Source: Pseudohongiella sp.
GTDB lineage: Bacteria > Pseudomonadota > Gammaproteobacteria > Pseudomonadales > Pseudohongiellaceae
DNA: 64,000 bases
Direction: 5' to 3'
Assembly (NCBI GenBank): GCA_030651695.1
Contig: JAUSCD010000029.1
Coordinates: forward strand, 310,001-374,000
A program made the position numbers and the translations under genes. A model generated the notes under the pieces. The model was not told where the DNA came from, searched no databases, and saw only the letters and a list, made by a program, of their open reading frames with translations. Shown here in pieces: positions 25,774 to 28,759 of this stretch. Within the stretch, counting starts at the first letter, position 1. Every line of letters starts with the position of its first letter.

Positions 25774-26547
25774 TTAGGTGTCACTTCTCAAACTTAGGGT
25801 AACTGGGGCGTGATCCGAGAAGTTCTGGTCTGTATATATCGCGGAGGCGTGCACCCGGGTGGCGAGTTCTGGTGTGATGACGTGATAGTCGAGTCGCCAA
25901 CCCACGTTTTTTGCTCTGGCCTGTCCCCTGCTCGACCACCAGCTGTATTGCCCCGGCATCTGGTTCACCAAACGAAAAGCATCCACAAAACCCAGTTCCT
26001 CATAAATATGAGTCAACCAGGAGCGTTCCTCGGGAAGAAACCCGGGATTATTACGGTTTGCCCGCCAGTTTTTCAGATCGATCTCTTTGTGACACATATT
26101 CCAGTCACCACAAATGATATATTGCCGGCCGTCATTTCTGAAGCTCAGCAAGAGTGGCAAAAGTCTTGCCAGAAACTCGAATTTAATCTGCTGGCGGAGT
26201 TCGCCGCTGGAACCTGAGGGCATGTAGAGTGAAACAACACTTAATTTGCCAAAGTCAGCCTGAATATAGCGCCCTTCCGCGTCAGCAATATCCCAGCCAA
26301 TGCCACGAACTACCCGATCGGGCTTGACCCGGGAATAAATCGCCGTACCCGAATACCCCTTCTTCACCGCGTCATAATAGAAACAGTGGTATCCCTCCGG
26401 GTAAAACACCCCTCCGCCCAACTGGTGTTCCTGGGCTTTGGTTTCTTGCAGGCAGACAATATCCGGAGCCTGAGTCGCCAGCCAGTCAAAAAAACCTTTT
26501 TTTGCCGCCGAACGAATACCGTTGCAATTAAATGTTGTGATTTGCAT
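25774..26547 (-). CDS. xthA: Exodeoxyribonuclease III
   Basis: It acts as AP endonuclease and 3'-5' exonuclease in base excision repair. It has 257 residues from the ATG at 26547, which matches the usual ITTFNCNGIRSA beginning. LQETK holds the metal-binding Glu, GDWNMCHKEIDLKNW the Asp-Asn pair, and FSDHAPVT the catalytic Asp-His. An in-frame TTG at 26562 is less likely: a TATAAC element at 26574-26579 (minus strand) would leave it almost no leader. It is 19 bases ahead of the cyclophilin. Confidence 0.92.
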   Translation of the reverse strand: MQITTFNCNGIRSAAKKGFFDWLATQAPDIVCLQETKAQEHQLGGGVFYPEGYHCFYYDAVKKGYSGTAIYSRVKPDRVVRGIGWDIADAEGRYIQADFGKLSVVSLYMPSGSSGELRQQIKFEFLARLLPLLLSFRNDGRQYIICGDWNMCHKEIDLKNWRANRNNPGFLPEERSWLTHIYEELGFVDAFRLVNQMPGQYSWWSSRGQARAKNVGWRLDYHVITPELATRVHASAIYTDQNFSDHAPVTLSLRSDT

Positions 26548-26651
26548 GTCGACGTTTTTCAAATCCTGACGTTGTTATACTGGAGTCGTTACCTTAACGG
26601 GGTGATAAGAAACACATTTGCTACCAAAATGCTGCCGTCCATCGTATAAAA

Positions 26652-26721
26652 GTAACATATTATCGGTTATTCATCTTTTTTAGGATAATAGTGTTACCTT
26701 TTTCCTCGATTGTGTTACTAT
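26652..26721 (+). promoter_or_regulatory. Promoter region with phased TGTTAC repeats
   Basis: GTGTTAC occurs at 26691-26697 and again at 26712-26718, exactly 21 bases apart, or two DNA turns. The reverse complement GTAACA is at 26652-26657, another 40 bases upstream. A -10 candidate GATAAT lies at 26684-26689 and a weaker TACTAT at 26716-26721. This looks like an operator for the small unit downstream. The 5' leader that follows contains GCGTC/GACGC pairing. The promoter is not proven. Confidence 0.45.
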
Positions 26722-26799
26722 GCGCGTCGTTGCAGAGACGCACAACGTCGCAGCAACAAATTCAGCTAACAACGTTTATTGCCCACAAGGAGAGAAAAC

Positions 26800-26901
26800 A
26801 TGAGTGAGTTTATTATCAGTGCACGAGCCGCCCTGATTACAGCAGCAGTAGTAACCGCTTCGGTTGCAGTGCCTGTACTGACTATTCTGGCTACCCATTG
26901 A
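26800..26901 (+). CDS. Unrecognised 33-residue hydrophobic mini-protein
   Basis: It begins MSEFIISARAA and ends LATH. Residues 10-31 are hydrophobic and Ala/Val/Thr-rich, with a single Pro, enough for one membrane helix. The SD AAGGAG is ideally placed 7-8 bases before the ATG, the best in this stretch. There is no known family I can name. It is first of two mini-genes between a repeat-bearing promoter region and a terminator. It could be a small membrane protein, a leader peptide for the next gene, or a toxin-like peptide. The strong SD and ordered layout argue that it is translated. Confidence 0.55.
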   Translation: MSEFIISARAALITAAVVTASVAVPVLTILATH

Positions 26902-26904
26902 GAT

Positions 26905-26948
26905 CAGCTTCCCTGAAGGTCGAAATACCTTCCCTCAATAGGGAGCTG
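26905..26948 (+). promoter_or_regulatory. Intercistronic RNA structure that pairs the next SD
   Basis: The outer stem pairs CAGC-TCCCT (26905-26914, one bulged T) with AGGGAGCTG (26940-26948). The inner stem GAAGGT (26915-26920) pairs with ACCTTC (26927-26932). The outer right arm contains GGGAG, the SD of the next mini-gene. The left arm starts 4 bases after the upstream stop codon, so ribosomes finishing the first peptide would melt it. This suggests translational coupling or regulated access. Confidence 0.55.
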
Positions 26949-26951
26949 CTT

Positions 26952-27071
26952 ATGACAAATTTGAAACAACCCGGACTCATGAGTGCGCTGCCAAGCAAAT
27001 CGCTGACATCGGCTCTGATTCTTGCGACAACTGAAGTACCCGCCCGGACGGTTTTTGCATCAGCCCAGTGA
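26952..27071 (+). CDS. Unrecognised 39-residue mini-protein
   Basis: It begins MTNLKQPGLM and ends TVFASAQ. It is rich in Ser, Thr, Ala and Leu, with two Lys near the start, moderate hydrophobicity in the middle and no Cys. GGGAG lies six bases before the ATG but is paired in a predicted hairpin. The stop codon falls inside the loop of the terminator. It belongs to no family I recognise. A second in-frame Met at residue 10 is possible. Coding status is less certain than for the upstream mini-gene. Confidence 0.45.
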   Translation: MTNLKQPGLMSALPSKSLTSALILATTEVPARTVFASAQ

Positions 27072-27099
27072 ACTATAATGGTTCCGGGCTGATGTTTTT
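27058..27099 (+). terminator. Intrinsic terminator of the mini-gene unit
   Basis: CATCAGCCC (27058-27066) pairs perfectly with GGGCTGATG (27086-27094), followed by TTTTTATTT. An inner GAAC/GTTC pair is possible. It ends the transcript that carries the two mini-proteins and points towards the convergent moaB. Confidence 0.88.
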
Positions 27100-27135
27100 A
27101 TTTCTGCGTTCAGTAAATCCGCACAGAATCCTTCT

Positions 27136-27645
27136 TCAAGAAACTTTCTTTAACTTGTCAACGAAATGGCACGGCTTGTGTCTGCTATCAATTTGCTGAG
27201 CGATTATCCCTTCCCACGCTGTACGACAGGCGCCGGTAGATCCGGGTACGCAGAAAACGATAGTCCCGTTACTCATTCCGGCAAAGGCTCTGGATTGAAT
27301 AGTGGAACTGCCAATTTCATGGTGGGATAGATGTCTGAACAGCTCACCAAAACCGTCAATTGCCATGTCCAGCAAAGGTGTAACTGCCTTGACGGTATTG
27401 TCCCTGAAGGTAAAACCGGTGCCGCCGGTCAGCAATACCGCCTGAACCTGCTCATCGGCAATACAGGCAGCAACTAAAGCACGCAGCTTATATGTGTCGT
27501 CTTTGACAATCACCTTTTTGAGGACATTGTGGCCAGCCTCCCGGAGACGTTCAGTGAGGTAACGCCCTGAAGTGTCTGTCTCCTCCGTTCGGGTGTCGGA
27601 TACAGTAATTACTACAGCATTTACAGCAATCAGTCCTTCGCTCAT
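27136..27645 (-). CDS. moaB: Molybdenum cofactor biosynthesis protein B
   Basis: MoaB belongs to the MogA/MoaB family that adenylylates molybdopterin before metal insertion. The core LLTGGTGFTFRDNTVKAV and the later FCVPGSTGACRTAW are conserved. It has 169 residues. It lies 10 bases after moaA and ends the long minus-strand run of the window's middle. Confidence 0.92.
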   Translation of the reverse strand: MSEGLIAVNAVVITVSDTRTEETDTSGRYLTERLREAGHNVLKKVIVKDDTYKLRALVAACIADEQVQAVLLTGGTGFTFRDNTVKAVTPLLDMAIDGFGELFRHLSHHEIGSSTIQSRAFAGMSNGTIVFCVPGSTGACRTAWEGIIAQQIDSRHKPCHFVDKLKKVS

Positions 27646-27655
27646 ATTCAGGCGC

Positions 27656-28759
27656 TTACCCTCCGGTCATATTCATCAGGCGCACAGGTTGCGCATAATC
27701 TTGTTCGTAAAAGTGATGGCGTTCCGGTTTGAGATCCATAGCAGCAACAATGGCTTGCTTCAAGTTCTCTGGCACGGGAATTTCTGCTGCTCGTTCAAGA
27801 CTTTTTATTTCATCCTGATGACTGTTCTGCCCGTCATCTGCGCGCAGAATTCTACGCAAATCTGATGAATGCTCATTACCCAGACACAATAATAAACGGC
27901 CTTCAACTGTCATACGCACACGATTACAATCGGCGCAGAAGTTGTGCGACATCGGTGAAATAAAGCCAATACGGCTGCGCTCGCCGGGGATACTGTAGTA
28001 GCGCGATGGCCCTGCTGTCGTCTCATCAGAACCCACCAAAGTGTACTGCTTTTCAATTTGCTCACGTACCCAGTCGTTGCTGCACACAGTGTCTTCACGC
28101 TGGTGTTCAGAGGCTTGCCCCAAGGGCATTTCTTCGATAAAGGCGATATCAATTCCGCGCTCAACAGCAAAGTGCGTCAACGGCAATACTTCATCATCGT
28201 TGTAGCCCTTCATGATGACGGTATTGAGTCGAATGCGATCAAAATTACAGGAGCGCGCCGCCTCAATACCAGCCAGCACCTTTTCAAGCCGACCTGTTCT
28301 GGTGATACGACGAAAACGCTCCGCATCGAGACTATCAATGCTGATATTGATACGATTGACACCAGCTTCGCGCAGCGGCGCTGCCATGCGATCGAGCTGT
28401 GCGCCGTTAGTTGTGATTAATAGCTCGTCAAGTCCGGGCAGGCGCCCCAGAGCATTAACCAGGGCTATCACATTATTGCGTACCAACGGCTCTCCGCCTG
28501 TCAGTCGCAGACGTCTGACACCCAGTTCGGTGAACGCACGACCAACCTGATAAATTTCTTCCAGCGTCAGCACATCTTTGCGAGGAAGAAACTGCATCTC
28601 TTCAGTCATGCAGTATACACAGCGAAAATCACACCTGTCGGTGACAGACAGCCGGACGTAGTCCACCTGCCGGCCAAAACGATCGATGAGAAGGCTAGCC
28701 GGTTTGGCGGTGATCGCACCGGTGTCACTGGTATCTATCAAGTTTCCTGTGTATGTCAT
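27656..28759 (-). CDS. moaA: GTP 3',8-cyclase
   Basis: MoaA is a radical SAM enzyme that, with MoaC, makes cyclic pyranopterin monophosphate, the first step of molybdopterin synthesis. The N-terminal [4Fe-4S] motif is Cys43-x3-Cys47-x2-Cys50. LRLTGGEPL, the C-terminal second cluster CADCNRVR with CLG, and the terminal GG needed for activity are all present. At 367 residues it is slightly long, with a linker at about 305-325 ([17 protein letters not shown]). Confidence 0.96.

Follow-up and report, generated by a model that had tools for sequence, protein, structure and literature searches.

The region between xthA and moaB in Pseudohongiella sp. raises the question of whether two very short open reading frames, each with its own Shine-Dalgarno (SD) sequence and both lying between promoter-like repeats and a terminator-like hairpin, form a functional unit, and what such a unit may do. 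The initial annotation of the window (the whole stretch of 64,000 nucleotides analyzed) had recognized neither peptide and proposed a membrane mini-protein pair, a leader-peptide switch or a toxin-antidote unit. The elements that it listed, namely the promoter candidates, ORF1 with its SD, the structured gap, ORF2 with its SD and the 9-bp terminator with its T-run, were all located where it had placed them. The features of the region are as follows.

25774..26562, minus strand: xthA, divergent; the neighbor here, not constant across genera.
26650..26658, plus strand: upstream box AAGTAACAT; the window copy reads GTAAC where relatives of the same genus carry GTTAC.
26692..26697, plus strand: first TGTTAC box (-35 region), from the sequence and its comparison across the family.
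26713..26723, plus strand: second TGTTAC box fused with an extended -10, TGTTACTATGC, from the strict-pattern search.
26729..26757, plus strand: 5'-end hairpin with outer stem GTTGC...GCAAC and inner stem GACG...CGTC, from covariation in 13 sequences.
26787..26794, plus strand: SD of ORF1, AAGGAGAG, read in the sequence.
26800..26901, plus strand (26800-26898 plus the stop codon): ORF1, 33 aa, MSEFIISARAALITAAVVTASVAVPVLTILATH, a putative single-pass membrane microprotein, from conservation, selection and hydropathy.
26899..26954, plus strand: intercistronic hairpin predicted by folding (-19.1 kcal/mol), reaching from the stop codon of ORF1 to the start of ORF2.
26952..27071, plus strand (26952-27068 plus the stop codon): ORF2, 39 codons, peptide weakly conserved, from its SD and ATG and from comparison.
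27038..27056, plus strand: pre-terminator motif CCCGynnnGAyGGTT, from 13 aligned same-genus loci and a reading of G004.
27058..27103, plus strand: intrinsic terminator with a perfect 9-bp stem, a 19-nt loop and a T-rich tail, read in the sequence and in relatives.
27136..27645, minus strand: moaB, convergent, named by the initial annotation and by our reading of the translation.
27656-28759, minus strand: moaA, behind moaB, named in the same way.

The two TGTTAC boxes start at 26692 and 26713, a spacing of 21 bp. In the gap between the frames, AGCTTCCCT (26906-26914) pairs with AGGGAGCT (26940-26947), which is the SD of ORF2, and the terminator stem is formed by CATCAGCCC (27058-27066) and GGGCTGATG (27086-27094), followed by TTTTTATTT. 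A generic sigma-70 scan and a generic terminator scan over the unit returned 0 and 0 matches; the former is blind here because of the non-standard -35, and the latter because the 19-nt loop exceeds the scan's loop limit of 8. The reality of these signals therefore rests on comparison, that is, on their conservation, and not on consensus matching. The promoter-to-ORF1 stretch is similar at the DNA level in 12 of the 14 other same-genus genomes, and the unit is present in one copy in its own genome. None of the Rfam 15 covariance models matched the unit at the gathering score, the sole match in the window being a tRNA at 749-820. A 14-nt inverted repeat (86%) links positions 26603-26616, in the upstream region, with 26805-26818, at the start of ORF1.

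The first step is to establish how widely ORF1 is distributed. Genera of Pseudohongiellaceae are labeled g1 to g8, g1 being the genus of the window and g4 the largest. Profile A1, built from five same-genus ORF1 peptides, matched 14 of 15 g1 genomes, including that of the window, and 14 of 14 g5 genomes; the single g1 genome with no match is 72% complete. Frame conservation in relatives, on which the initial annotation had made its proposal depend, is thus found for ORF1. The promoter, traced into other genera, led in 22 of the 25 loci read to a form of 34-43 residues adjoining moaB. Profile A3, built from such forms, matched 88 of the 137 family genomes at E <= 0.01 (4 of these from g5), with exactly one match in 85 of the 88. 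Altogether, ORF1 was found by profile in 112 family genomes, and in 113 of 137 when G032, recognized by promoter and locus reading, is included (g1 14/15, g5 14/14, g4 69/84, g8 8/11, g2 6/6, g6 1/1, g3 1/5, and g7 0/1). An A1 match in G082 (E 0.001) was rejected as a chance place, a better copy being present on another contig. In total, 108 loci were read (50 + 58); of the 60 fetched for the second set, G111 and G118 were dropped for want of a clean start.

Close relatives of ORF1 were sought in 84,980 species genomes; 11 loci came up, none of them clearly from another genus. Profile A3, run against 293 genomes of the order that included the family members, gave two weak outside matches only, one with E 0.003 inside an 803-residue open frame and one with E 0.009, neither of them convincing. 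With no convincing hit outside, the ORF1 family appears to be confined, at the sensitivity used, to one bacterial family. The contig CALQJO020000001.1 (L036, 112 kb), from a bin titled Rhodoferax sp. OV413, bears a Pseudohongiella-type ORF1 locus, and its title is probably wrong.

ORF1 encodes 33 aa in all 14 g1 loci read. Pooled JC dN/dS values were 0.063 in g1 (14 sequences), 0.078 in g5 (13 sequences) and 0.116 in g4 (16 sequences), with the truncated copy of G075 and peptides other than 33 or 37 residues left out, and they point firmly to strong purifying selection on the frame in these three genera. The best 19-residue mean Kyte-Doolittle value is at least 2.06 in all 107 peptides of at least 30 residues, 101 of 108 peptides have a proline at the ninth position from the C-terminus, and none of the 63 g4 peptides with 37 residues departs from E13, A14, A25, P29, and I32. 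We infer that the ORF1 product is a single-pass inner-membrane microprotein, its membrane insertion and topology being those that its amino acid sequence would predict. The idea of a membrane mini-protein is thereby borne out for ORF1 by conservation, dN/dS and the single hydrophobic stretch. Neither ORF1 nor ORF2 of the window had a match in Pfam or NCBIfam, three other ORF1 forms, searched against Pfam only, had none there, and no PDB sequence matched ORF1; the best curated-model match was Tom22, with E 0.18 and 12.1 bits versus a cut-off of 28.7. The proposal of a small conserved unit with an unrecognized peptide is thus supported by the conservation of and selection on ORF1, together with the null library searches. 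Judged by comparison of sequences, the two-frame unit is real, and the support for ORF1 is firmer than the initial annotation could have known.

The signals upstream of ORF1 are also conserved. The strict pattern TGTTAC N14-17 TGTTACNATRC was found in 69 of the 137 family genomes, once in 67 of them and twice in G155 and G156, whereas the reversed control gave one match in all 137. Outside the family, it occurred in 1 of 373 genomes of the order (390 searched less 17 family members). Across the family the boxes lie 21-23 bp apart. Most of the further loci read have a looser variant of the pair in front of ORF1, and 13 of 14 same-genus loci carry a direct GTTAC at a distance of 40-41 nt upstream of the first TGTTAC. 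The two-box promoter appears to be gene-specific. A TGTTAC-pair regulon was considered and rejected: the looser pair TGTTAC N14-18 TGTTAC gave 31 matches in the 15 g1 genomes versus 62 for the reversed control, which puts its sites elsewhere in the genus at chance level. In G155 and G156, copies of the TGTTAC promoter and an xthA remnant precede a different, secreted-looking protein (L118, L119, and L120), apparently through duplication and reuse of the promoter.

Pairing in the leader hairpin is maintained in 106 of 117 cells over 13 same-genus sequences, 4 of the 9 pairs showing double changes, versus 35-38 of 116-117 cells in a slid control in which the partner was moved by 1-2 columns; the register was set by hand, and G010 was omitted since its leader and that of G008 are identical in this region. 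In 50 loci, the first 40 nt had a mean fold z of -1.48, as opposed to +0.51 for the 40 nt immediately preceding the start codon of ORF1, and they folded better than at least 95 of 100 shuffles in 23 of these loci. The tendency to fold is weaker in g4, with a mean z of -0.77 and a 5' stem in 43 of 56 loci versus 32.5 expected. The hairpin, at the predicted start of the transcript, would probably guard the 5' end of the RNA.

The unit is faced by moaB in 103 of the 108 loci, 101 in a first reading plus G085 and G106 in wider stretches; of the other five, G135 has no moaB in the 3.8 kb downstream, and four have 0-289 nt before the contig end. On the other side, xthA is present in the available flank of 71 of the 108 loci and in 0 of the 14 from g8, g2, and g3. 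One locus from each of these three genera, inspected over 8-9 kb, had no xthA match but had ppiA on that side, with a hemD-like gene (our own reading) in between in the g8 and g3 loci. The constant partner of the unit is moaB, and the opposite side varies. The suggestion of a leader-peptide switch was rejected on this basis: nothing lies downstream on the same strand, and moaB, convergent in the 101 of 108 loci of the first reading, and moaA lie behind the terminator on the opposite strand.

The same comparisons bear on the toxin-antidote proposal, which can be cast as a type I toxin-like unit with ORF1 as a membrane-active peptide repressed by an antisense or trans RNA. A peptide that is small, hydrophobic and predicted to sit in the inner membrane, broadly like TimP (PMC7667032), and a structured leader would suit such a unit. 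However, no antidote frame was recognized at the unit, and no minus-strand promoter is widely shared in g1, a sigma-70-like site (9-of-12 match) being present on that strand in only 5 of 14 g1 loci; in 4 of these it occupies the same place and has weak hexamers. Furthermore, ORF1 is family-wide at one conserved place, with a single profile match in nearly every matching genome (85 of 88), and searches for mobile elements gave no match for the window DNA among plasmids, for the G001-type ORF1 peptide among phage records or for the g4-type peptide among plasmid records. A toxin remains among the rival explanations as a highly improbable one.

The role of ORF2 is the second part of the question. 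ORF2 was called where an SD, an ATG and at least 5 codons were present within 100 nt of the ORF1 stop; 2 of the 108 loci, with less than 150 nt downstream, were skipped. It was found in 10 of 14 g1, 13 of 13 g5, and 44 of 64 g4 loci, for which shuffles expect 2.0, 0.7, and 7.2, respectively, so that the three main genera have it in 67 of 91 loci versus about 10 expected; the minor genera contributed 1 of 7 (g8), 1 of 6 (g2), 0 of 1 (g3), and 1 of 1 (g6). ORF2 was not found in 20 of 64 g4, 4 of 14 g1, 6 of 7 g8, and 5 of 6 g2 loci or in the sole g3 locus. Since it is missing in so many loci, the unit can do without it.

This excess of frames with an SD of their own is what would be expected of a plain two-cistron microprotein operon, in which ORF2 encodes a second small protein that is functional in some species and decaying or replaced in others. 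Candidates for functional forms are the hydrophobic 37-aa peptide of the window's relatives and perhaps the short forms of g5. In four relatives, ORF2 has 37 codons with a hydrophobic stretch and shows mild purifying constraint (pN 0.084, pS 0.195), ORF1 being free of amino acid changes among them, and a functional ORF2 product is possible in these four species. The frame conservation sought for ORF2 holds in part: of the other 13 loci of the genus, 4 have a recognizable relative of the 37-39 aa peptide. In g5, pN was likewise below pS (0.042 and 0.129, from six pairs only), which hints at constraint on the g5 peptide, although the +1 frame gave similar figures (0.035 and 0.074). Against a second protein, ORF2 varies between 9 and 53 codons across genera, and its sequences are unrelated.

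The g4 loci speak against it as well. Over 99 close pairs, g4 ORF2 had pN 0.206 and pS 0.179, versus pN 0.086 and pS 0.257 for ORF1 in the same pairs. Its geometry was assessed in the 41 g4 loci with an ORF2 and a detected terminator, using a wobble-tolerant search because a perfect-stem search had missed 15 of 50 loci. Of these frames, 36 have 10-11 codons, the others having 12, 14, 15, 50, and 53; in the other two frames, the best two neighboring lengths cover 14 and 21 of 41. In 37 loci, the stop lies between -3 and +1 nt relative to the terminator stem (32 of them at -2 to 0), and in four it lies away from the stem foot (-102, -61, -14, and +32), although these clustered stops are not independent because the sequences share ancestry. 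All three stop codons are used (TGA 23, TAA 11, and TAG 8). The g4 ORF2 peptide thus appears to be without purifying selection, start, length and stop position being kept while the residues drift, which is difficult to reconcile with a second functional protein. The two-cistron operon is, on balance, rather unlikely, and only part of the peptide pair initially envisaged stands: ORF1 as a membrane mini-protein holds, whereas ORF2 is weak as an equal partner, given that its sequence and length differ between genera and that it drifts in g4.

The tight stop geometry is confined to g4. All ORF2 stops in the 10 g5 loci lie inside the detected stem or beyond it, 9-72 nt past the stem start, and stops in the +2 frame are equally clustered (9 of 10 at 8-11 codons). 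Of the nine g1 stops, four are inside the stem region and five at 18-43 nt before the stem, and in the window the ORF2 frame extends through the terminator's 5' arm.

The start of ORF2 is predicted to be less accessible than that of ORF1. In the window, the predicted mean unpaired value is 0.13 for the ORF2 SD region versus 0.50 for the ORF1 SD, and the ORF2 SD is predicted to be the less open of the two in 10 of 10 g1, 10 of 13 g5, and 29 of 39 g4 loci, the reverse being predicted in 3 of 13 g5 and 10 of 39 g4 loci. In 41 of 42 g4 loci, at least 4 predicted pairs span the ATG and join the SD to codons 2-5 (mean z -1.26), with stems that vary. According to these folding predictions, the second start would be hidden by structure near the first stop, as in translationally coupled pairs. 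In g5 loci such as L058, the pairings TCGGG..CCCGA and CCC..AGGG between the ORF1 stop and the ORF2 start look mutually exclusive by eye, an arrangement that could give coupling of opposite sign.

Conservation in front of the terminator allows yet another reading. The motif CCCGynnnGAyGGTT is recognizable across g1 although the ORF2 frame is not kept there, G013 being short of one base. Its explanation as ORF2 peptide coding was rejected, as the motif letters persist where the frame is without a usable start. In a dual-function small RNA, the transcript would pair with targets via CCCGynnnGAyGG and the peptide would be secondary, an idea to which both the persistence of the motif and the compact transcript with its terminator lend themselves. 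However, inspection by eye did not reveal the motif in those downstream sequences of g5 and g4 that were read, whereas ORF1 is present in all seven genera read, and the unit had no Rfam match at the gathering score. Of the explanations considered, this one is given the least credence.

The reading that is preferred, with slightly more confidence than doubt, is that of a stand-alone membrane-microprotein gene in which ORF2 serves as a control frame, coupled to ORF1 through translation, that acts on the 3' end of the mRNA. Transcription would start at the promoter with its two TGTTAC boxes, the second of which is fused to the extended -10, and the RNA would begin in the hairpin that shields its 5' end. 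Ribosomes loading at the strong SD would then produce a protein of 33-37 residues with one membrane helix and a proline nine residues from its end, which would most likely regulate a larger membrane complex or belong to it as an accessory subunit. On completing ORF1, a ribosome would open the hairpin hiding the ORF2 start, and ORF2 would in turn be translated to the foot of the terminator hairpin or into its 5' arm. At least in g4, the feature under selection would be the arrival of a ribosome at the 3' hairpin and not the peptide, so that the fate of the mRNA 3' end, by termination or decay, would be tied to the efficiency of ORF1 translation.

A more specific consequence is conceivable though improbable. 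A ribosome passed on from ORF1 to ORF2 may stop at the terminator foot, open the hairpin and thereby set either antisense read-through into moaB-moaA or decay from the 3' end, in which case the gene would sense its own translation and trim the synthesis of the molybdenum cofactor. This would fit the observation that moaB is the constant neighbor while the other side changes.

This work adds a membrane microprotein family that is widespread in one gammaproteobacterial family and unnamed in the libraries searched. With its control frame as read here, the unit may also be a test case for a question that could hardly be posed elsewhere: can selection in a bacterium favor the translation and the stop position of a micro-frame at the mRNA 3' end and yet leave its peptide unconstrained? 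The 67 frames among the 91 loci of the three main genera provide natural variants of such a frame. No title among the literature matches listed concerned this gene, nor was there a small-protein paper on Pseudohongiellaceae or OM182, most subscription papers being outside the coverage of the search.

Known systems share single aspects of the unit. In leader-peptide attenuators, a short frame is translated by a ribosome that could block a terminator hairpin; the ORF1/ORF2 unit differs in being without a downstream gene on the same strand. The small membrane protein CydX, a cytochrome bd subunit of 37 aa in Escherichia coli, resembles ORF1 in its size, its few highly conserved residues and its frequent lack of annotation, as described in the available part of that source (PMC4325964). 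Unlike CydX, ORF1 has its own promoter and terminator, has no operon partner and no Pfam, NCBIfam or PDB match, and, at the sensitivity used, occurs in one family only. TimP-TimR offers another overlooked small inner-membrane protein (PMC7667032, available part), but a repressor RNA was not found for ORF1 in the minus-strand promoter search of g1 loci.

The sbrB-lexA pair of Staphylococcus aureus comprises a convergent small-protein gene from which read-through makes an antisense RNA, and there, too, the terminator of a small-protein mRNA faces a convergent gene and its read-through is antisense (PMC8745188). In that system, read-through results from terminator mispairing, and a second frame is not described in the portion of the report that was available (PMC8745188). 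Translation of the sbrB frame had no effect on read-through according to the same portion, which by analogy counts against the role proposed for ORF2. Translational coupling by RNA unfolding is well established as a model, and terminator hairpins can be kept from forming by ribosomes that terminate there (PMC12548453). The unit resembles the coupled pairs covered there in that its second start lies in predicted structure close to the first stop (PMC12548453). It differs from them in that the second frame of g4 has 10-11 codons, with an apparently unconstrained peptide and a stop at the terminator.
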